40,361 nt of DNA from positions 1 to 40,361 of IMG/VR virus record IMGVR_UViG_3300012006_000013; one strand, given 5' to 3'. Shown here one piece after another: positions 6,463-33,139 of this stretch. Positions within the stretch are counted from its first letter, which is position 1; each line of letters starts with the position of its first letter. This DNA is from a virus. The notes below the pieces were generated by a model. That model was not told the origin of the DNA, ran no database searches, and saw only the letters and a list, made by a program, of their open reading frames with translations. The position numbers were made by a program, and so were the translations under genes.

Positions 6463-6777
6463 TTACCCTATTTGATCTTCGTCTAAATTAATTTTTATTT
6501 TGTTTGCTTCAATCTTTTTAGTTTCAATCTTTTCTTGTGTTCTACCATATGCTGTTACACCTAATACGGCACCCATAGCTATATGAAAGAAACCAGCACC
6601 TTGTAATGTTAATGGATTCCATTGTGTAAACACAACTGTTTTTAAATATGTTGCTTGTGCAAAATTCCATAATATAGGAAATATAACAAAATCAAAAGCA
6701 CATACTGCTAGATATAACCAGCCCATAGCAGGACGCCACTTAGTATTAAAACTTGTTTCTTTATTCTGTGTACTCAT
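6463..6777 (-). CDS. Holin-like membrane protein in the tail operon
   Basis: 104 residues: NTKWRPAMGW near the N-terminus, a hydrophobic segment (LYLAVCAFDFVIFPILW), an amphipathic linker, a second hydrophobic segment (GAGFFHIAMGAVLGVTAYG) and a charged Lys/Glu tail. The WRP-TM-TM-G-x-x-x-G-R-x-x-E layout matches the 3TM holin family also seen at 2-349. The ATG overlaps the stop of the frameshift extension (ATGA, 6774-6777), so translation is coupled to it. Its place between the chaperone-like gene and the tape measure is unusual for a holin; it may instead be a tail-tip membrane component. Confidence 0.6.
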   Translation of the reverse strand: MSTQNKETSFNTKWRPAMGWLYLAVCAFDFVIFPILWNFAQATYLKTVVFTQWNPLTLQGAGFFHIAMGAVLGVTAYGRTQEKIETKKIEANKIKINLDEDQIG

Positions 6778-6959
6778 TGACTATTCCTTTTCTTTCTATC
6801 TGCTTCTTCTTTTAAATGATTAATCAATAACGAAATGTAAATATCACGTTCCCAAGGTATCATATTCTCTATCTCACTTAGTGAATATTTATGATGCTGT
6901 ATCAATGCAAAGTTAGTTTCAAAGTATGCCTCTAACGAATTATGAGAGAGGCTTATTCG
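6774..6959 (-). CDS. -1 frameshift extension of gp26 (gp51 position)
   Basis: A reading frame with no start codon near its beginning that continues gene 26 in the -1 frame for 61 codons from position 6959. It encodes a helical peptide with LEAYFETNFALIQHHKYS, SEIENMIPWERDIYISLL and a basic Lys/Arg end, the WExxxY-type C-terminal domain found in tail assembly chaperone T-domains and in small hub assembly proteins. The first possible start is a TTG far inside. In T4 the gene after 26 is 51, the hub assembly factor. Expression as a gp26 fusion of about 299 residues is predicted from the slip site at 6959-6965. Inference, but strongly supported by frame, motif and structure. Confidence 0.65.
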   Translation of the reverse strand, partial: RISLSHNSLEAYFETNFALIQHHKYSLSEIENMIPWERDIYISLLINHLKEEADRKKRNSQ

Positions 6960-6965
6960 AAAAAA
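6928..6965 (-). promoter_or_regulatory. -1 frameshift signal: slippery site plus hairpin
   Basis: On the minus strand the end of gene 26 reads GAT TTT TTC GAA TAA. T TTT TTC (6965-6959) is a classical X XXY YYZ heptamer in the correct frame. Six bases later, GCCTCT (6952-6947) can pair perfectly with AGAGGC (6933-6928) around a 13-base loop. Heptamer, short spacer and hairpin together are the standard parts of a programmed -1 frameshift signal. The zero-frame stop lies inside the spacer. Confidence 0.7.
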
Positions 6966-7672
6966 TCAGATATTCCTGTTAAAACCACTTTACTTTTCAC
7001 GTTAGTTTTAGGATTAGTTACCTCTATTTCGTGTTTTAATACAGGCATTGTTTCAAAAAACTTTCTTATTTTAATAAAAGCTTCTTGTGGTAGACCTTCT
7101 AGGAATTCTCTTAATTCTTTTTTAGTACTATCTTTTGCTGGGTATATTTTATCACCTTCAAAAACGTGATCTATACAATCAACTAAAATTGTAAACATCA
7201 ATTCTAATTGTTGAGTATCAATTTTACCTTTACCATAATCATAGTTTTTTAAAGTAGGATAACCTAATACTACACCTAAGTTTCTTTTTTCATCTAAAAT
7301 TATTTTATTTGAATGTGAGTCATCAACTTGAACTTCAATTTTAGTTAAATCAACTTCAGTTTCAACATAAGTTTTTCCATCGTCTGGACATATCGTTTTA
7401 AATTTAGATATTTCTGATACTGATTTAGCTCTTAATTGTAAAAATATATACTCTATATCAAATATAGGTAGTAAATCTACTTTTAAAACATTAAATGTAC
7501 AAGCATTAATTATTTCTCTTATTGCTTCAACAATTTGTTTATTGTCTCCTGTTTCTTGTGCTATAAAAAGTATTTTTTCTTCTCTAACAAGAAAAGGCCT
7601 ATACTTTACTTTTAAATCTTGTGATGGCAGTGTCAACTCATATGTAGGCACATCAACTCTTGGTAACGTCAT
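6953..7672 (-). CDS. 26: Baseplate hub subunit/assembly protein gp26
   Basis: 239 residues, T4-type gp26 (T4: 208). Begins TLPRVDVPTYELTLPSQ and KYRPFLVREEKIL, the conserved opening of the family, then LRAKSVSEI, a Cys-Pro-Asp loop (TICPDDGKTY) and the C-terminal KKELREFLEGLPQEAFIKI. In T4 gp26 is needed for hub assembly. Its sequence style (a substrate-binding globular protein followed by a frameshift extension) resembles the lambda gpG/gpGT tail chaperones. A good AAGGAG ribosome site precedes the ATG at 7672. It follows gene 54 after 15 bases and leads into the extension ORF. Confidence 0.85.
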   Translation of the reverse strand: MTLPRVDVPTYELTLPSQDLKVKYRPFLVREEKILFIAQETGDNKQIVEAIREIINACTFNVLKVDLLPIFDIEYIFLQLRAKSVSEISKFKTICPDDGKTYVETEVDLTKIEVQVDDSHSNKIILDEKRNLGVVLGYPTLKNYDYGKGKIDTQQLELMFTILVDCIDHVFEGDKIYPAKDSTKKELREFLEGLPQEAFIKIRKFFETMPVLKHEIEVTNPKTNVKSKVVLTGISDFFE

Positions 7673-7687
7673 TATTATCTCCTTTTA

Positions 7688-8671
7688 TTATAAATTAAGT
7701 GGTGGAAAATTGCCAAATGGAGGAAATACTCGACCACCTGTAATACCACCGATTGGTATACGTCTTTTTAGTCCTTGTAATACATCAACACCAGCACGTC
7801 TTAATTCTGGTGGTAATTTGTTTAATAGGCCGCCAAATGCACCAAAAGAACTTTTAACGGTAACATCTCTAAAGTTTGGTTGACCTAATTCTATATTGCC
7901 TGATCTATCTAAGAAGTAATTTATCCAATATCTAAAACCAAATGTCACTTGAAAAGTTTGTACAGCATTATTATCATACGAATACTCTACAGCACTTATA
8001 GTTTTTGGAAAACAATCAAATAACTTGACAGCATATGTTACATCATCTCTTTCGTTACGACTTGCAAATTGACCTAATTGAAATATGTTTACATCAGAAA
8101 CATAATTATCATAAAAATTAAAATTATGACTTTGATTGCTGAACGCAGCTTTTTGCCATAATTCAAAATAACTTCTTTCTCTTAAAAATTTATCAGCATA
8201 AAATGTTGCTGTTATATCTGCTGACTTATAATCTATTGCTATTTTATATGCTGGGCCGTGGTGTTTAACTTCTTTCATTTCAACTGTACGTTCAGGCATT
8301 GATATAGCAGAACAAAATGCTTGTACACGTCTAGCGTTTGCTTTTTGTACAGAAATCATTTCTGCTGAAGTTTTGAATGTAGTTGCTAATTCGTTTGCAC
8401 CATCACTTAATTCAGAACCAGGATCTATATTTGTAAGACCTGCACCACCAGCTTTTGGTAAATTAAACTCAACATAAAATCTTGCCTTACGAGCAAATCC
8501 TTCTGCCTCATTAATATATGATTGTACACGACCCATAGTCGTTTCAGGATTGCCACCTGCTTTTTGTCTAAATCGTGGATCGCCTTCAACATTATCTAAA
8601 GAACGATCACGAGGTAAACCTAATCTTATATCAAAACCACCAATACGAACTCCGCCTCTTAATATGGCCAT
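7688..8671 (-). CDS. 54: Tail tube initiator gp54-like protein
   Basis: 327 residues from the ATG at 8671 (T4 gp54: 320). It carries a tail-tube fold: FCSAISMPERTVE, YKIAIDYKSADITATFYAD, RSYFELWQKAAF, then YAVKLFDCFPKTISAVEYSYDNNAVQTFQVTFGFRYW, the strand pattern found in gp19/gp54-type proteins. Gp54 forms the ring on the baseplate from which the tail tube grows. The start was chosen at 8671 because it has AAGGAG upstream and overlaps the previous stop (TAATG); the longer upstream frame lies inside the preceding gene. The N-terminal 60 residues are Gly/Arg-rich and flexible. Confidence 0.75.
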   Translation of the reverse strand: MAILRGGVRIGGFDIRLGLPRDRSLDNVEGDPRFRQKAGGNPETTMGRVQSYINEAEGFARKARFYVEFNLPKAGGAGLTNIDPGSELSDGANELATTFKTSAEMISVQKANARRVQAFCSAISMPERTVEMKEVKHHGPAYKIAIDYKSADITATFYADKFLRERSYFELWQKAAFSNQSHNFNFYDNYVSDVNIFQLGQFASRNERDDVTYAVKLFDCFPKTISAVEYSYDNNAVQTFQVTFGFRYWINYFLDRSGNIELGQPNFRDVTVKSSFGAFGGLLNKLPPELRRAGVDVLQGLKRRIPIGGITGGRVFPPFGNFPPLNL

Positions 8672-18447: not shown

Positions 18448-18624
18448 ATGCACACAGACAGAACAAATAGTTTACATCAATATAACGCAGGTAATTTTCA
18501 AGAATACACATATGAAAGAGAATATATGGAATGCGCTTGGAATATTGTTTATAAACAAATTGATTTGGTAACGGCTTTTTATTATCCTTGGATTATACAT
18601 GAAAATAGTACTAACAGGCAGTGA
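18448..18624 (+). CDS. 58-aa protein overlapping the epimerase gene
   Basis: MHTDRTNSLHQYNAGNF, then EYTYEREYMECAW, then a Tyr/Trp-rich end. It starts only nine bases after the late box, with a predicted leader of about four bases, and its last 26 bases overlap the start of the epimerase in another frame. Aromatic-rich, no membrane segment. Real gene status rests on promoter placement and the clean ORF; function unknown. Confidence 0.5.
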   Translation: MHTDRTNSLHQYNAGNFQEYTYEREYMECAWNIVYKQIDLVTAFYYPWIIHENSTNRQ

Positions 18625-19363
18625 AGGTTTTATAGGTAGTAATTTAAAAAAAAGATTACTTATAAAAAAACATCAACTAGTTTGTTACGATTTATCTCTT
18701 AACAAAGACATTAAAGACTTTACATTAGATGGTGATGAAAATTTTGTAATTCATTTGGCTGCAAAGACAAACGTTAGAGAGAGTGTTAAAAATCCTGCAC
18801 CATATTTTATTACAAACGTGGACTACAGTAAAAAAATATTTAATCTTTGTAAAGAAAAAAACATACCTTGTTTATACGCTTCTAGTTCTTCTGTACATAA
18901 CTGGACTAAATCCCCATACGGTAAAAGTAAGTTAATGATGGAAGAGGCCGCACATACTGGTCAAGTAGGATTAAGATTTGCCACCACATATGGAGAAACT
19001 CCACGTAAGGGTATGTTATTTGATTATATAGTGAATGGTACTGTAAAATATAAAACAAATCATAAAAGAGATTTTATTTACGTAGATGATGTAGTGAACG
19101 CAATATTATTGTTTATTAAGTTGGGATTGAAGAATAAAAACAAAACCTATGAAGTAAGTTCTGGCCATTTATACAGTGTAAAAGAAGTAATAGAAGAAGC
19201 TGGATTTAAAGTACCATTAAGAAAAGGTGAAGATTGTGAAGCTGAAAGTAATGCCAGTGACAATAGTGAATTAAAAAAATTAGGTTGGGAACCTACAATG
19301 ACAGTGTGGACGTTTTTAAGAAATTTAGATTTAGATAAAGTAGTAAGATTAGGTAGATTGTAA
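18599..19363 (+). CDS. NAD-dependent nucleotide-sugar epimerase/dehydratase
   Basis: 254 residues, extended SDR family. TGSEGFIGSN (6-15) binds NAD; HLAAKTNVRES follows; Ser/Ser/Ser-Val around 95-99 and Tyr107-G-K-S-Lys111 form the catalytic site; RDFIYVDDVV is the conserved late motif. It resembles UDP-glucose 4-epimerase-type enzymes but is shorter than the usual 310-340, so the C-terminal substrate domain is reduced. Likely makes a sugar nucleotide for glycosylation, matching the glycosyltransferases at 36-38 kb. Its end overlaps the converging 52-aa gene by 15 bases. Confidence 0.85.
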   Translation: MKIVLTGSEGFIGSNLKKRLLIKKHQLVCYDLSLNKDIKDFTLDGDENFVIHLAAKTNVRESVKNPAPYFITNVDYSKKIFNLCKEKNIPCLYASSSSVHNWTKSPYGKSKLMMEEAAHTGQVGLRFATTYGETPRKGMLFDYIVNGTVKYKTNHKRDFIYVDDVVNAILLFIKLGLKNKNKTYEVSSGHLYSVKEVIEEAGFKVPLRKGEDCEAESNASDNSELKKLGWEPTMTVWTFLRNLDLDKVVRLGRL

Positions 19364-22996: not shown

Positions 22997-25513
22997 ATGG
23001 CTATATTCAAAGATAAACTTTCAAACCTTATAGGTTCACAAGTACCTAATTTTGTACTTGACGACCATCCTAAATTTTTACAATTTTTAAAAACATATTA
23101 TTCATTTATGGAAGCTGCCGAGTTAGCAGTTACATCAATTCAAACTACAGACGGCATTCAATTAGAAACTCAAACAAACCAATTGAATGAATTACTATTA
23201 GATGGCTCTCGTATTGATTCTGATAGAACAGCCTTAGATGAAGGAGATAAAATACTTTTAGAAAGTTCTACGTTTGGTAAATTTACAAGAGGTGAAACAA
23301 TTGTAGGCCAAACTTCAAAAGCAACATCTACAATATTATCAGAAGATTTAGATAACAGTAGATTGTTCATTGTAGCACAAGATAAATTTATTATGGGAGA
23401 AACTATATTAGGCACATCTTCTAATGCAAGTGCTGTAGTTAATAATTACAAACCAAATCCAGTAAACAATATACAAGAGTTATTAAACTTTAGAGATCCT
23501 GATAAAGCTATATCTAATTTTTTAACTAACTTTAGAAATGAATTTTTAACTACGTTACCTGAAAATTTAAATTCTAATGTTAATAAAAGAAATTTAATCA
23601 AAAATGTTAAATCATTATACAAGTCAAAAGGTACAAAAACAGGACACGAAGTATTTTTTAGATTACTTTTTGATGAAGTATCAGAAACTTTTTATCCACG
23701 TGAACAAATTTTAAGAGTATCTGATGGTAAATTTACAACAAATAAAGTTTTAAGAGCTACAACCTTAGTAGGAGAAACTTCTAATTTAGTCGGCAGACCA
23801 ATAACAGGTACAACATCAAATGCAACGGCTATAGTTGAAAGTGTAACTAAATTTTTAATTGGTTCTACTTCTATATCAGAATTTATTTTAAATTCAGATA
23901 GTATTAAAGGAAGTTTTGTTGTAGGTGAAAATATAACAGGAACAGTTGATGATATAGATGATATTTTAATTGAAGCAACAATTTCAGGCATACCTATCTC
24001 AAAAGTAATATCAAATGATGGATCTTTACATACAACAGCCGAGCCGGCAACAATAACAGGCGGAGGAGACGGTGCAATTATTCAAACTAAAACAATTGGT
24101 TCAGGTGGAATTACAGAAATAATTATAGACAATGCAGGAACAGGATATTCTATTGGCGATGATTTAATTTTTGTAAACACAAATACAAATGGTGCAGGAG
24201 CTGCAGGATTTATTTCTGTTGTTAACGGAGGATTTACACCTGAAGATAGCACAAGCACAACAGAAGAACACATTATATTAGAAGAAGCTACGACACAAGA
24301 CGATACTTATTTTGGTAATAAACTTGTACAAGAATCAGGAACTGATATTGGCGATATAACAGATATATTTTTATATGACAATGGAGGAGGATATACTTCT
24401 TTACCTACGGTTACAATTAGTTCTTCAGGTACAGGTTCTATATTAAAAGCTTTTGGAAGCAAAATAGGTAGAGTATTAGATTTAAATATAGTTGAGTTAG
24501 GAATAAATCACCAATTATCTCCTACGCCGCCTGTTGTTAATTTATTTAAAAATTGTATTATTACAGGAGTAACAGGTACTTTTGCTGCAAATTCCAGTGT
24601 AACAATTAATGGTAGTGTTACAGCTACTGTAGTAAGTTTTAATTCTGTATTAGGTCTATTATCATTAAAAAACAATTCAGGTACAATTAGTGTAGGCAAC
24701 ACAGTTGTTGGTTCAAGTGGTTCAGCTACAATTAGAAAAATAGATGGTGCTACAGCTACTTTAACAATTGGTTCTGTTGCTGATACAGATGGTAGATTTA
24801 TAAATGAAGATGGGTTTATTTCTGAAAGTACAATGAACATACAAGATAGTTTATACTATCAAGATTTTTCTTATGTTATAAAAGTTGCTAGATCAATTTC
24901 AGATTGGCGAGATGACTTTAAAAAAACCATGCATACTTCAGGTTTTTATTTAGCGTCCGAAGTTAATATACAAACTAAATTGAACGCTCGTATATCTATG
25001 CCTATCATAGGAAATGTTTCAGGTGTTATTGATGAGCCGTTCTTTGCAATTATTAATACATTATTTACAACAATTGTAGGAAGAAGATTAGGTACAATTG
25101 ATGATGGCACAACTTTAAGAGCAAATGCTAAATTAGGTATACCTGCTGATTTTGATACAAGTACAATATCTCCTTTTAGTAATACAACACGAGATGTAAC
25201 TTTAGTTAGAGTGCCTATAAGAATCGATTACACATCAAGAGTAAGAGATATATTTAATGGCATTACGATTAGTCAAGGTTATGGTTATGCCGGCCCACGT
25301 TATGGTACAATCAATAGAGAAGTTTTTAAAACATTTAAAACAACTGGCACAAATTATTCTATATCTGAATTAAGTAATAACGTTACTTTTGGTACAAGAA
25401 CATCTTTAAATGGACAAGATAATACATTATTATTTTGTTCAACATACTTAGGTAGATTTATAAAAACAAAACTTACAATGCCAGCAGAAATTACAATAAC
25501 AACTACACCATAA
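22997..25513 (+). CDS. Large baseplate wedge protein (gp7 position)
   Basis: 838 residues (T4 gp7: 1032). N-terminal helical part with PNFVLDDHPKFLQFLKTYYSFME and RDPDKAISNFLTNFRNEFL, a chain of short beta repeats (FxxGExIxGxxSxAxAxV at about residues 96, 131, 262 and 305), Gly-rich strands (GGGYTSLPTVTISSSG) and a C-terminal domain. The order after gene 6 and before gene 8 suggests the gp7 role of linking wedge parts; the sequence itself is not diagnostic. It shares its repeat units with gp8 and the 2027-residue protein. Confidence 0.6.
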   Translation: MAIFKDKLSNLIGSQVPNFVLDDHPKFLQFLKTYYSFMEAAELAVTSIQTTDGIQLETQTNQLNELLLDGSRIDSDRTALDEGDKILLESSTFGKFTRGETIVGQTSKATSTILSEDLDNSRLFIVAQDKFIMGETILGTSSNASAVVNNYKPNPVNNIQELLNFRDPDKAISNFLTNFRNEFLTTLPENLNSNVNKRNLIKNVKSLYKSKGTKTGHEVFFRLLFDEVSETFYPREQILRVSDGKFTTNKVLRATTLVGETSNLVGRPITGTTSNATAIVESVTKFLIGSTSISEFILNSDSIKGSFVVGENITGTVDDIDDILIEATISGIPISKVISNDGSLHTTAEPATITGGGDGAIIQTKTIGSGGITEIIIDNAGTGYSIGDDLIFVNTNTNGAGAAGFISVVNGGFTPEDSTSTTEEHIILEEATTQDDTYFGNKLVQESGTDIGDITDIFLYDNGGGYTSLPTVTISSSGTGSILKAFGSKIGRVLDLNIVELGINHQLSPTPPVVNLFKNCIITGVTGTFAANSSVTINGSVTATVVSFNSVLGLLSLKNNSGTISVGNTVVGSSGSATIRKIDGATATLTIGSVADTDGRFINEDGFISESTMNIQDSLYYQDFSYVIKVARSISDWRDDFKKTMHTSGFYLASEVNIQTKLNARISMPIIGNVSGVIDEPFFAIINTLFTTIVGRRLGTIDDGTTLRANAKLGIPADFDTSTISPFSNTTRDVTLVRVPIRIDYTSRVRDIFNGITISQGYGYAGPRYGTINREVFKTFKTTGTNYSISELSNNVTFGTRTSLNGQDNTLLFCSTYLGRFIKTKLTMPAEITITTTP

Positions 25514-27055: not shown

Positions 27056-30000
27056 ATGCCAAGTCCAACAGACTTTAACCTCTCACCTTACTTTGATGAC
27101 TACGCTGAGTCAAAGAAATTCCATAGAGTTCTTTTTAGACCAGCATTCGCAGTACAGGCTAGAGAGTTAACACAATCACAATCAATTCTTCAAAATCAAA
27201 TTGAAAGAATATCAGACCATCTTTTTGAAAAAGGTGCAATGGTTCTTCCAGGAGAAATTGCTTTTGATTTAGATTATTATGCTGTAAAACTTACATCTAA
27301 AACATTTGCTACAGTTGCCGAATATATTGGTAAAGAATTAACAGGTGTTACATCAGGTGTTAGAGGTATTTGCGTTAATGCTGTTGTAACAGACGGTACA
27401 GATCCAGATACTCTATATGTAAAATATAATAAAACAGGAACAAATAATACATCTTTTGTTTTTACGTCTGGTGAAACAATACAGGCCAGAACAGTAGGTG
27501 TTGCAACAGTTTTAGCAACTGCTGTGGTAAATTCAACAGCCACTGGTTCTGCTGCTAGTGTAGCTGCAGGAGTTTATTATATAAATGGTTTTCACGTTTC
27601 AGTATCGGAACAAACATTAATACTTGACAAATACACAAACACACCAAGTTATAGAATAGGTTTAACAGTTGTTGAATCTTTTGTTACTTCTAACGAAGAT
27701 GGCACTTTAGTTGATAATGCTCAAGGTTCATCAAACGTAAATGCACCAGGTGCTCATAGATTTAAAATAGATTTAACATTATCTAAAAGAACAATCACAT
27801 CAACAGATGATGCCGATTTTGTAGAATTATTAAGATTATCAAATGGTATTAGACAAAACCAAGTTCGTTCAACAGAATATAACATATTAGAAGATACACT
27901 AGCAAGAAGAACGTTTGATGAATCTGGTGATTATACAGTAAGAGAATTTGATTTAGATATAAGAGAACATTTAATATCAGGAAATAATAGAGGTATTTAC
28001 ACATCAGGTAATGGTGGTGTTGAAACAAAATTAGCTGCAGGTTTATCACCTGGAAAAGCATATGTAAAAGGTTATGAAATTGAAACTATAGGAACAACTT
28101 TTGTTGATATAGATAAAGCTAGAGATTTTGGTACAGAAAATAATTTCAATACAAGATTTGACGTAGAAAATTTTGTAAACGTTACAAACGTATATGGTTC
28201 ACCTGATATTGGATTTGTTACTGGTGATGTTGAAGCATTTAAAAATGTTAATCTATTTGATACAGCCACAGTTACAAGAGGCACACAACAATCAACAGTG
28301 GGTGTTACAGTACCGCAAATTGGTCGTGCTAAGTCAAGAGGCTTTGAATTAAACAACGGAACGGCCAGTGCAAACACATTTTCTAGTTCAGCCTTAACAA
28401 GTGCAGTTTATAAACATTTTCTATTTGATGTAGAAATGTTTACACATTTAAATGTAAAAACAGCGCCTGCTTTTTCTAACGGAGAAAAAGTAACAGGTGG
28501 TACATCAGGAGCTTTTGGTTTTGTTCAATCTATATCTAATACAAAATCGGCAGCAGTTTCAAGTATTTCAGTTGCAAGTCCTGGAGTTGTAACATTAAAC
28601 GCACACTCATTTAAAGAAGGAATGCAAATTACTTTAACAGGTGGTTCTTTTGCTATTAATTCGGTTGCATATACAACTGGCACAGTATTTACAGTTAAAA
28701 ATCCTACAACAAATACTTTTCAATTATTTGATGCCGCTGGTGATACGGCAATTAATGTAACTTCTTATAGTTCAGCGCCTACGGCCGCACACGGTGTTAC
28801 AGTTTTAAATAATGTAACAGGCACATTTGTAGAAGGAGAAACAATTACAGGTGCTACTTCAAGTGTAACAGCAGTTATACAAAATGAAAGATATGGATTT
28901 AAAGGTATTCAGATTTTTGATTTTACACAAGTTAAACAAGTTGGTATGGCAGGTTCACCTACTTATACGGCAGACGTTGCTAAAGATTTAACTTTTGGTG
29001 AAGTTTATCCAGTATTTGGTTCTATATCTATTGCAAATAGTGGTACAGCGATTACAGGATTTGGTACTTTATTTTTAACTGAATTAAAAATTGGAGATTC
29101 TATTACATTTACTACTGATGCAGGAAGTTCAGTTACAAGAATTGTTGAATCTATTTTCTCAAATACAAGTTTACAATTATTAACAGCAGTTGGTGGTTCT
29201 GATGTTTCTACTAAAACAGTTGCATTTAGAAATCGTGGTAAATTACAAGGTTCAAATAAAAACATTGCAATATTTCAATTACCAAATACAAGAATTAAAA
29301 CATTAAAAACTACAGCAAATAGTGGTATAACAGATACAAACTTTAATGTAAGACGACATTTTACAGGTACATTATCAGCAAATGGTGATGTAACAATTAC
29401 AGCTGGTACAAATGAAACATTTCCTGCTTTAACAGAAAAAGATTTTTCAGTTTCTATTATGACATTGGGTGCAGGTACTTCAGGCGCCGTAGGAAACGTA
29501 TTGAGTTTATCAGGAAATAATCACGAAGGATTTTCTACATTCGTAAGAGGTGGTTCACCAACAGGAAAAACATTAACTTTAGATTTTGGTGCTAATTATT
29601 CAGGACACAAAGTTAAAATTTTAGCAACAGTTCAAAGAAGTGTTGCAAGTTCAAAAACAAAAACATTAAACATTAATCAAACAGTTGCTATTTCTTCTCA
29701 AACAATAATACAATCTGGAACAATAGGGTTAGCAAAAGCAGATGTTTATAAAATAAATGCTGTTTATATGTCAGCAGATTTTAGTACAGCCGCAACAACT
29801 GGTAGTACAAATGTTACGTCAAGATTTGAATTGGATACAGGTCAAAGAGATAATTTTTATGATATAGGTAGAATTAAATTAAAAAAAGGCGCAATTGCAC
29901 CAATAGGAAGATTATTAATTAATTTTGATTTTTTCTCACACGGTTCAGGAGATTATTTTGATGTTGATTCATATTCGGGAGTAATAGATTATAAAGATAT

Positions 30001-33000
30001 ACCATCATATAATTCTGATACAACAGGTGTAAAATATGATTTAAGAGATTGTTTAGATTTTAGGCCTAGAGTAGATGATGCATCTACAGTTACAAGTTCA
30101 ATACAAAATAGACAATATAGTGGTTCAGGAAATTCAACAGTTGATATTGTGCAATTTAATTCAGATGTAACTACAGATTTAGAATTTTATTTACCTAGAG
30201 TTGATAAAATATTTTTAGATAAAGATGGAGTGTTTAGAGTTCTTAAAGGTGCCGGCTCTTTAAGTCCACAAATTCCAAAAGGACTTGAAAATGCTATGCA
30301 TTTATATACTATATTTTTAAAAGCATATACTTTGAATACGTCTGATCTTATAATTAAAAAACAAGACAATAAACGATATACTATGAGAGATATTGGCCGT
30401 TTAGAAAAAAGAATTGAAAATGTAGAGTACTATACACAATTATCTCTACTAGAAACACAAGCACAATCTTTACAAATACAAGACGCTGAAGGTTTTGATA
30501 GGTTTAAAAACGGATTTATTGTAGATAATTTTACAGGCCACGGAATAGGAGATGTAGGAAATTTAGATTACAAAGTTTCTATGGATATGGCCGGCGGTTA
30601 TGTTAGACCTTTATTTAATTCTGAGTCTGTACAATTAATTGAAGCAGATGATGATGGCACTGCAATATTAGCAGCTGATAGAACAGCAGCCAACTATCAA
30701 AAAACAGGAGATTTAATTACATTACCTTACACTGAAACTACAATTATAAATCAACCATATGCAAGCAAATACGTAAATGTAAATCCTTTTAATGTATTTA
30801 CTTGGTCAGGTTCAGTTACCCTTGATCCTCCAGGCGATGAATGGAAAGAAACAAATAGAGTTCCTGATTTATTAATTAATGAACAAGGTGCCTTTGATAC
30901 AATGGCCGCTAATTTAGGTAATCCTAATTTAGATAGTATAGAAATAGATACAGTGTGGAATGAATGGCAAGATTTTTGGCAAGGTACGCCAGTAGAAACT
31001 TCAAGTGTATCAAATGTTAGAAGAGGAAGGTCAGGTGGATGGACAGTTGATTTTGGCGATGTTACAACAACAACATCTCAAGCAGTTTCTTCAACTAGAA
31101 CAGGTGTTAGATCATCTTTAGTTCCTCAGGTTGTTAGAACATCTTTAGGTGATAGAGTATTAAATATAGCTTTCATACCATTTATTAGAAGTAGAACAAT
31201 TAATTTTACTGCTACTAGAATGAAACCAAATACAAGAGTTTATCCTTATTTTGATAATGTAGCTATCACAGCATATGTTACACCAACAGGTGGTTCATTA
31301 AGTGGTAATTTGGTTACAGACGCCAATGGTGCTGTATCAGGAACTTTTGCTATACCTGATGCAACTAACGACTCTAATCCTAGATGGAGAACCGGTCAAA
31401 GAGTATTCAGATTAACAAGTTCAGTTACAAATTCAACAACAGACGTTGAAACTTCTGCTGAAGCAGATTATATAGCTAAAGGTTCTTTAGAAACGGTGCA
31501 AAATACAATTGTGTCAACAAGAGAACCACAATTAGTTAGACAAGATGTAAATGATACAAGAAATATTACACGAACATCAACTAGAACAACAACAGAAGTT
31601 GTAGCTTGGATTGATCCTATTGCACAAACATTTTTAATTGATGACACTGATGGTGTTTTTGTAACATCTATTGAGTGTTATTTTCAATCAAAAGATGCTA
31701 ATATTCCTGTTACAATGCAAATAAGAGAAGTTGTAAATGGTTATCCTTCTCGTACAATTGTGCCTTTTGGTGAAGTTGTTTTAAATCCAAGTTCAGTTAA
31801 TATTAGCGATGATGCAAGTACATCAACTAAATTTACTTTTCCTTCTCCAGTTTATTTACAAGAAAAAACTGAATATTGTTTTTGTTTATTAAGTAATTGT
31901 AATAGTTATAACGCCTTTGTTGCAAGATTGGGAGATACACAAATCGGTTCAAACAGAACAATATCTGAAAACCCTTATGCCGGTGTTTTCTTTAAATCAC
32001 AAAACGGTTCAACTTGGACGGCCGATCAAGAAGAAGATATAAAATTTAAAATTAATCGTGCAGAATTTAGTAATGTAACAGGTACAGTAACACTTGTAAA
32101 TGATAGTGTTCCAGTAAAAACTTTACCAAATAATTCATTAAGAACAACAAACACTTCAGGAGTAATAAGAGTATTTCATAAAAATCACGGAATGCACGGT
32201 TCAAATAATAATGTTACAATAGCTGGCGTGGCAGCAGGTACATATAACGGAATTTCTTCAGCAAATATTAATGGAACATATACAAGTATTACAAACGTAA
32301 CTTTAGATAGTTATGATATTACAACAGCTGGTACGGCAACTGCTACAGGAGATATTGGCGGATCAACTGTAACGGCCACACAAAATAGATTATTTGATTT
32401 ATCTTGTTTAAACATATCTACACTTACAGTACCCGGTACTTCAATCACATATGATATGAGACCAACTTCAGGTAAATCAATTCACGGTTCTGAAACTGAA
32501 TTTAGTTTAACAAGTGCTACCAACGCTATAAGCGTAATACCTGGAGATAATATTTACTTTACTTCACCTAAACTTGTTGCAAGTTCTATAAATGAAACAA
32601 ATGAGATGTTAGGTGGTAAATCTTTATTTGTAAATTTAACAATGACAACATCTAGTACAAAAATATCACCAGTATTAGATGTTAAACGTATGAGTATGGT
32701 TGCTGTACAAAATAGATTAAATAATCCTACATCAGGCAATACGCCAAATTTTGTAGCTGATACAAGTCCTACAGGAACATCATCAGCCGCTGTTTACGTA
32801 ACAAGACCAATTACTTTAGAAAATAAATCTACTGCTTTGGATGTTAGATTGACTCAGAACGTAAGATCAAGTTCAGAAGTTTTAGTTTTCTTTAGAGTTA
32901 CAGGTGCTGAAGAAGTAAGAAACATAAACGATTTATCTTGGACACCTTTTAATACAGATGGTTCAGAAGATATAAGTGTTACGCCTGCAGAAAATGATAA

Positions 33001-33139
33001 CGTATTTAAAGAATACAAATATTCAGCTTCAGGTATAAACACATTTACGGCATTTCAAATTAAAATAGTTATGAAAGGTAGTATTTCTTCTTATCCTCCT
33101 ATTATTAGAGATTTAAGAGGAATAGCTTTAGCAGCATAA
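27056..33139 (+). CDS. Giant baseplate/tail protein, DUF4815 type
   Basis: 2027 residues, the largest gene of the window. N-terminus FNLSPYFDDYAESKKFHRVLFRPAFAVQARELTQSQSILQNQIERI is typical of DUF4815 proteins, which occur in marine T4-like phages as large virion proteins. The following part is a mosaic of beta repeats, including FxxGExIxG units at about 140, 475 and 590. The region at about 1080-1160 has KDIPSYNSDTTGVKYDLRDCLDFRPR. The last 500 residues include a jelly-roll-like part (WIDPIAQTFLIDDTDGVFVTSIECYF; PVYLQEKTEYCFCLLSNCNSYNAFVAR). It probably takes the place of gp9/gp10 or connects baseplate and fibres. Function by position and family. Confidence 0.7.
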   Translation: MPSPTDFNLSPYFDDYAESKKFHRVLFRPAFAVQARELTQSQSILQNQIERISDHLFEKGAMVLPGEIAFDLDYYAVKLTSKTFATVAEYIGKELTGVTSGVRGICVNAVVTDGTDPDTLYVKYNKTGTNNTSFVFTSGETIQARTVGVATVLATAVVNSTATGSAASVAAGVYYINGFHVSVSEQTLILDKYTNTPSYRIGLTVVESFVTSNEDGTLVDNAQGSSNVNAPGAHRFKIDLTLSKRTITSTDDADFVELLRLSNGIRQNQVRSTEYNILEDTLARRTFDESGDYTVREFDLDIREHLISGNNRGIYTSGNGGVETKLAAGLSPGKAYVKGYEIETIGTTFVDIDKARDFGTENNFNTRFDVENFVNVTNVYGSPDIGFVTGDVEAFKNVNLFDTATVTRGTQQSTVGVTVPQIGRAKSRGFELNNGTASANTFSSSALTSAVYKHFLFDVEMFTHLNVKTAPAFSNGEKVTGGTSGAFGFVQSISNTKSAAVSSISVASPGVVTLNAHSFKEGMQITLTGGSFAINSVAYTTGTVFTVKNPTTNTFQLFDAAGDTAINVTSYSSAPTAAHGVTVLNNVTGTFVEGETITGATSSVTAVIQNERYGFKGIQIFDFTQVKQVGMAGSPTYTADVAKDLTFGEVYPVFGSISIANSGTAITGFGTLFLTELKIGDSITFTTDAGSSVTRIVESIFSNTSLQLLTAVGGSDVSTKTVAFRNRGKLQGSNKNIAIFQLPNTRIKTLKTTANSGITDTNFNVRRHFTGTLSANGDVTITAGTNETFPALTEKDFSVSIMTLGAGTSGAVGNVLSLSGNNHEGFSTFVRGGSPTGKTLTLDFGANYSGHKVKILATVQRSVASSKTKTLNINQTVAISSQTIIQSGTIGLAKADVYKINAVYMSADFSTAATTGSTNVTSRFELDTGQRDNFYDIGRIKLKKGAIAPIGRLLINFDFFSHGSGDYFDVDSYSGVIDYKDIPSYNSDTTGVKYDLRDCLDFRPRVDDASTVTSSIQNRQYSGSGNSTVDIVQFNSDVTTDLEFYLPRVDKIFLDKDGVFRVLKGAGSLSPQIPKGLENAMHLYTIFLKAYTLNTSDLIIKKQDNKRYTMRDIGRLEKRIENVEYYTQLSLLETQAQSLQIQDAEGFDRFKNGFIVDNFTGHGIGDVGNLDYKVSMDMAGGYVRPLFNSESVQLIEADDDGTAILAADRTAANYQKTGDLITLPYTETTIINQPYASKYVNVNPFNVFTWSGSVTLDPPGDEWKETNRVPDLLINEQGAFDTMAANLGNPNLDSIEIDTVWNEWQDFWQGTPVETSSVSNVRRGRSGGWTVDFGDVTTTTSQAVSSTRTGVRSSLVPQVVRTSLGDRVLNIAFIPFIRSRTINFTATRMKPNTRVYPYFDNVAITAYVTPTGGSLSGNLVTDANGAVSGTFAIPDATNDSNPRWRTGQRVFRLTSSVTNSTTDVETSAEADYIAKGSLETVQNTIVSTREPQLVRQDVNDTRNITRTSTRTTTEVVAWIDPIAQTFLIDDTDGVFVTSIECYFQSKDANIPVTMQIREVVNGYPSRTIVPFGEVVLNPSSVNISDDASTSTKFTFPSPVYLQEKTEYCFCLLSNCNSYNAFVARLGDTQIGSNRTISENPYAGVFFKSQNGSTWTADQEEDIKFKINRAEFSNVTGTVTLVNDSVPVKTLPNNSLRTTNTSGVIRVFHKNHGMHGSNNNVTIAGVAAGTYNGISSANINGTYTSITNVTLDSYDITTAGTATATGDIGGSTVTATQNRLFDLSCLNISTLTVPGTSITYDMRPTSGKSIHGSETEFSLTSATNAISVIPGDNIYFTSPKLVASSINETNEMLGGKSLFVNLTMTTSSTKISPVLDVKRMSMVAVQNRLNNPTSGNTPNFVADTSPTGTSSAAVYVTRPITLENKSTALDVRLTQNVRSSSEVLVFFRVTGAEEVRNINDLSWTPFNTDGSEDISVTPAENDNVFKEYKYSASGINTFTAFQIKIVMKGSISSYPPIIRDLRGIALAA

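Follow-up and report, generated by a model that had tools for sequence, protein, structure and literature searches.

The gp26 gene of an uncultured, T4-like marine phage very probably makes two tail assembly chaperones, the long one by −1 ribosomal frameshifting. The gene lies in the 40,361-bp IMG/VR record IMGVR_UViG_3300012006_000013, which over its full length is called the window here. A conserved slippery heptamer, a conserved stem, an open −1 frame under coding selection and homology of that frame to gp51 together make a frameshift-made chaperone of the lambda G/GT type the best reading of the locus, and they support what an earlier reading of the letters alone (the sequence-only reading) had proposed. 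From this evidence we infer ribosome slippage at the heptamer, the ratio of the two isoforms and their action as chaperones.

The gp26 locus of the window

The gp26 locus is surrounded by T4-type baseplate, head-closure and DNA-metabolism genes, and membership of the window protein in the gp26 family follows from PF12322 and phrog_150 profiles that match across its full length (Table 1). On the minus strand the gene ends GAT TTT TTC GAA TAA, with the heptamer TTTTTTC in frame. The heptamer is followed by GAATAA (6958–6953), by the two arms of a stem (GCCTCT, 6952–6947, and AGAGGC, 6933–6928) and, after a −1 slip, by 61 codons (6959–6777) and a TGA (6776–6774) that overlaps the next ATG as ATGA. 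The fusion product of such a slip has 299 aa. No ATG, GTG or TTG was found near the beginning of the extension frame, whose first ATG is codon 35 of a 63-residue frame. The sequence-only reading had described the in-frame heptamer, the 6-bp stem with its 13-base loop 6 nt downstream, the start-less extension of 61 codons, the ATGA overlap and the size of the fusion; all of these proved correct.

Table 1. Features of the gp26 locus and its neighbours in the window
Feature	Position	Strand	Basis
Candidate tape measure protein, 528 aa	4873..6459	−	position and composition only
Membrane protein, holin-like, 104 aa	6463..6777	−	PF11351 GTA_holin_3TM; ATGA overlap with the stop of the extension
−1 frame extension, 61 codons + TGA, putative C-domain of the long isoform (TAC-NC / GT-like)	6774..6959	−	phrog_634 1.5e-29; phrog_150 positions 231-281; pN/pS
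Stem-loop GCCTCT / 13-nt loop / AGAGGC, 6 nt past the heptamer	6928..6952	−	−9.5 kcal/mol, z −3.1; compensatory changes in relatives
gp26 homologue, putative short isoform (TAC-N / G-like), 239 aa	6953..7672	−	PF12322 T4_baseplate 6e-61; phrog_150 1e-65, positions 5-233 of 282
Slippery heptamer T TTT TTC, gp26 frame	6959..6965	−	sequence; conservation; codon-usage test
AGGA, possible Shine-Dalgarno-like stimulator (tentative), 8 nt before the heptamer	6974..6977	−	SD-like matches in relatives
Tail tube / tube-initiator (gp19/gp54-like) protein, upstream of gp26	7688..8668	−	phrog_45 6.8e-38

The chaperone gene has a tube-like gene upstream, and the tape measure candidate, named by position and composition, lies two genes on. 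The order of chaperone, extension and tape measure given by the sequence-only reading was therefore only partly retained: the chaperone with its extension stands, but the holin-like gene (PF11351 at 26.7 bits, cut-off 24.8) intervenes before the candidate tape measure gene. Small ORFs of 90–142 aa occupy the same place in HTVC008M, Mosig, Melnitz, phiM12 and AF3; none was present there in KVP40 and the cyanophages examined. The 528-aa candidate has a charged, Lys/Glu-rich stretch and a hydrophobic stretch at residues 313–356. Its assignment by homology failed, as Pfam and PHROG profile searches returned nothing worth naming and blastp found no similarity to the proteins at the same position in HTVC008M or Mosig.

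Elsewhere in the window, two plus-strand genes (22997–25513 and 27056–33139) encode proteins of 838 and 2027 aa with piecewise matches to several PHROGs (phrog_3465, phrog_2885 and others; phrog_358, phrog_877), which suggests that they may be mosaic virion or host-recognition proteins. A nucleotide-sugar epimerase-like ORF (18599–19363, plus strand; phrog_540 positions 293–583) is located within the structural region.

Conservation of the signal and of the extension

We gathered relatives from IMG/VR and phage records and obtained 175 with a readable gene end. The motif T TTT TTN stood in the gp26 frame beside an open −1 frame in 174 of them, the single exception being PhaxI (Ackermannviridae). 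After a cut at <90% identity, all 75 non-redundant relatives carried the heptamer (64 TTTTTTC, 10 TTTTTTT and 1 TTTTTTG), and their −1 extensions measured 58–68 codons, with one shorter at a contig end. The 0-frame stop shifts relative to the conserved slip site and was found 7, 10, 13 or 31 nt away. The same arrangement is present in KVP40, phiM12, Rhizobium AF3 (TTTTTTG), Aeromonas AS-zj, 65.2 and Aeh1, EniLVp02, HTVC008M, Mosig, Melnitz, S-PM2, P-SSM2 and MED4-213. An alignment of relatives, which the sequence-only reading had suggested together with RNA folding, thus recovered heptamer, stem and extension frame as conserved.

The extension is under protein-level selection ahead of its first ATG. 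Across 49 distinct relatives and the 32 codons upstream of the first ATG of the window, pN/pS was 0.175 in the −1 frame, which contains no stops, 0.99 in the 0 frame and 3.8 in the +1 frame. Extensions in relatives mostly start with FFR[IVL] and share a core resembling HHKYSLxEIENMxPWER. These data bear on the view that no fusion is made and that ribosomes reinitiate after terminating at the gp26 stop, translating gp51 as a small gene of its own. GenBank records do annotate separate CDSs, and an ATG overlaps or closely follows the gp26 stop in S-PM2, P-SSM2, KVP40, phiM12, AF3, EniLVp02 and some Ackermannviridae. However, the first ATG of the extension lies at codon 18 or later in 48 of the 75 relatives, the window among them, and the stretch between the slip site and this ATG is conserved. 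The annotated starts in HTVC008M, Mosig, Melnitz and C48C1 would remove conserved residues, and a universal U6 heptamer would be without reason. We therefore consider a separate gene without fusion very unlikely. Besides the fusion, 24 of the 75 relatives could produce a separate C-domain, since their extensions have an ATG at codon index 4 or 5.

Folding of the RNA pointed in the same direction as frameshifting. The 48 nt downstream of the slip site had a mean fold z-score of −2.48 in relatives (z −3.1 for the window stem), against +0.36 and −0.14 in flanking controls (p ~1e-23). The stems comprise 6–17 bp and differ in register: GCCTC/GAGGC in the clade of the window, up to 17 bp in S-PM2-like phages and another register in P-SSM2-like phages. 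Within registers we observed some compensatory changes (G-C to C-G, C-G to U-A); covariation inside one register class is modest, and the folding z-score is the stronger structural evidence. In a few relatives (AF3, C48C1, HTVC008M) the stem is weak or absent. Strong folding together with differing stems and registers indicates that a stem is maintained at the right distance while its sequence and register change.

The upstream element is less clear. A 4-nt SD-like match occurs at −17..−7 in 55 of the 75 relatives, and the Gly codon at this site is GGA or GGG in 42 of 75 cases versus 161 of 492 elsewhere. Since the Gly itself is invariant, protein constraint may explain the match, and the SD-like stimulator stays tentative.

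The same fusion could in principle arise by transcriptional slippage, because a homopolymer run of T6 or T7 sits at the junction and one extra U yields the same frame. Strict codon phase and a stem 6–8 nt downstream are ribosomal hallmarks, however, and the runs mostly comprise just six T, which is short for transcriptional slippage. We hold this route to be highly improbable.

These AT-rich phages favour TTT and NNT codons, and codon usage alone predicts the heptamer at a mean of 0.49 per sequence. Its conservation by chance nevertheless has a probability of 10^-8, even counting only 17 clusters at <60% identity. Of 80 other Phe-Phe dipeptides in these genes, only 8 are slip-like, and the GC-rich relatives AF3, S-B68, MC09 and phiM12 retain the heptamer against their own codon preference, at a chance of ~0.1–0.15 each. 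That a conserved Asp-Phe-Phe, whose Phe-Phe is indeed kept, merely happens to spell the heptamer beside an accidentally open −1 frame is practically negligible as an explanation, and was rejected on the codon-usage, folding and pN/pS tests, as the extension evolves as a protein in the −1 frame.

Relation to gp26 and gp51 of T4

PF12322 and phrog_150 each detect both T4 gp26 (208 aa) and T4 gp51 (249 aa). The phrog_150 match of gp26 ends at position 235 of 282, whereas that of gp51 reaches 280. Judged by these profiles, the two are paralogues; gp51 corresponds to gp26 with the extension added in a single frame. This paralogy accounts for the match of the window extension both to phrog_634, annotated as 'baseplate hub assembly catalyst' (gp51), and to the end of phrog_150 (Table 1). 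A profile of the −1 extension matched the C-termini of gp51 from Aes508 (1.6e-11), RB43 (2.1e-8) and T4 (2.7e-6) and did not match T4 gp26. By profile similarity, then, the window extension and the C-terminus of T4 gp51 are homologous. T4 gene 26 itself ends GAG TTC TTT GAG TTA CTA TAA; this end lacks a slip site and its −1 frame is closed. Genes 26 and 51 are on opposite strands.

Among 19 complete phage genomes, PF12322 occurred in two copies in T4, RB43 and Aes508 and in one copy in the other 16; phrog_634 was detected in 18 and never more than once per genome. Every heptamer-bearing complete genome searched had a single PF12322 copy. These relatives, through which the window, a 40-kb fragment, was judged, do not show the T4-type two-gene arrangement. 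The contrast runs through the Straboviridae: KVP40, Aeh1, AS-zj and EniLVp02 combine one copy with the heptamer, which 65.2 also carries, whereas in T4, RB43 and Aes508 the family is present twice and gp51 occupies a single frame. Since T4 gp51 is a full-length gp26 paralogue with the extension, T4 encodes the two isoforms as two genes. The equation of gp26/gp51 with G/GT in the sequence-only reading is supported as regards a putative chaperone role; T4 gp51 is not, however, the equivalent of the extension alone.

AlphaFold2 models of the window gp26 (pLDDT 85.6) and of a T4-like gp51 (pLDDT 89.6), the latter used as a proxy for the fusion, share the order of helices and strands, and gp51 has three extra C-terminal helices. 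In a tree, gp51 proteins formed one clade (99/98) apart from the single-gene proteins; the timing of the duplication is not fixed by this tree, in which gp26 of RB43 and Aes508 are long branches. Matches among viral predicted structures were gp26 relatives, some of them in Campylobacter and Bacillus phages. Foldseek gave no significant solved structure: the HK97 gp13 chaperone 2ob9 appeared only at E 3.6 (probability 0.16) and was not among the best 50 matches of the gp51 model. Sequence searches of gp26 and gp51 against the PDB gave no tail chaperone link. We also considered gp28 as a third paralogue and rejected it, as T4 gp26 reached the gp28 family only at E 9e-4 and T4 gp28 had no phrog_150 match.

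In RB43 (record L099, 3001–4294) the genes of the long paralogue (gp51) and the short one (gp26) lie side by side and overlap on the same strand, in contrast to the opposite strands of T4. This adjacency is possibly a relic of tandem duplication.

Proposed mechanism, known systems and annotation

In the proposed mechanism, most ribosomes would stop at the TAA and release the 239-aa short form. A fraction would slip by −1 on U UUU UUC, with help from the stem-loop located 6 nt downstream and perhaps from the SD-like AGGA upstream, and produce the 299-aa long form, whose C-domain is small and helical. If lambda G/GT is taken as the model, the short form would be the bulk chaperone that coats the tape measure, tube subunits would be recruited by the C-domain of the less abundant long form, and both isoforms would depart before tail completion. 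The T4 counterparts would be gene 26 for the short and gene 51, in one frame, for the long isoform. Marine 'gp51' fragments would then be explained as the C-domain of a long chaperone isoform and not as a separate hub catalyst.

One joint reading, which we judge evenly balanced between right and wrong, treats frameshifting as the older state of the T4-like chaperone. The stimulatory stem would have been rebuilt repeatedly in new registers with the heptamer constant. The T4/RB43 branch would have swapped recoding for gene duplication, one copy losing slip site and extension and the other losing the stop, which would leave two dosage-set genes. In the Ackermannviridae there would be a third state, based either on a degenerate NUU UUC site or on reinitiation.

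The lambda G/GT pair was reportedly studied by Levin in 1993 and Xu in 2004 and 2013. There, the short form works on the tape measure, and tube subunits are brought in by the rarer long form (PMC5009743). The window resembles lambda in its short protein with a predicted −1 frameshifted extension near the 3' end of a gene that lies between a tube-like gene and the candidate tape-measure gene, but differs in its slip site (U UUU UUC) and in the membrane-protein gene before the presumed tape measure. A 2016 review called G-T frameshifting conserved 'except T4' (PMC5009743). In T4, gp26 and gp51 have been listed as hub assembly chaperones, and gp51 is required yet absent from the particle (PMC3004832). 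Our results support a chaperone role for these two proteins, which have traditionally been regarded as a hub component and as a catalyst without a known function.

The sequence-only reading had called gp26/gp51 the 'long-sought' G/GT equivalent. This description does not hold, as the T4-like chaperone genes were already identified by Vladimirov, Gautam & Davidson 2022 (Virology 566:9-15), according to two papers that cite it: for T4-like phages with one short and one long fused gene (PRFect paper, PMC10885494) and for polyT slip sites in T4-like TAC-N genes (phage Adele paper, PMC12846349). As presented in these citations, the TAC-N/TAC-NC genes belong to the same family as that of the window, a contig from an uncultured marine phage; for T4-like phages the principle has been known since 2022, and the window adds a member. 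The TAC genes of Vandenendeviridae and Andersonviridae, such as phage Adele, likewise have a conserved polyT slip motif at the TAC-N end and an open −1 frame wrongly annotated as a gene in its own right, but the motif is GTTTTT and the phage families differ (PMC12846349). Perhaps new are the stems that recur in shifting registers, the copy-number contrast within the Straboviridae, the Ackermannviridae variant and the annotation gap. The natural slip sites and stems also form a ready panel for measuring how sequence controls the isoform ratio.

The variant was seen in six records of Ackermannviridae and Vibrio D510 (L095, L193, L194, L195, L196, L197). The gp26 ends in these records lack a U6 site and have NTT TTC/TTT instead (GTT TTT CGC in VAP7). 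A homologous −1 extension is kept in five of the six records, Vibrio D510 (unclassified in its record) being marginal. Reinitiation is possible in those Ackermannviridae that have TAATG; in PhaxI, PWKp5 and phiEa2809, no ATG is present at the gp26 stop (TAATT or TAATA), yet the extension follows.

In no public record examined are the two frames joined, and several of these records place the start of 'gp51' at an internal ATG. The locus appears to be misannotated as a separate gene in most of the hundreds of public records that contain it, which a curated frameshift join would correct. For Aeromonas AS-zj (record L090, 4013–6043), the GenBank annotation shows no gene from the end of gp26 to the tail completion gene and omits both the extension of gp51 type and a presumed tape-measure region, which spans ~600 codons.
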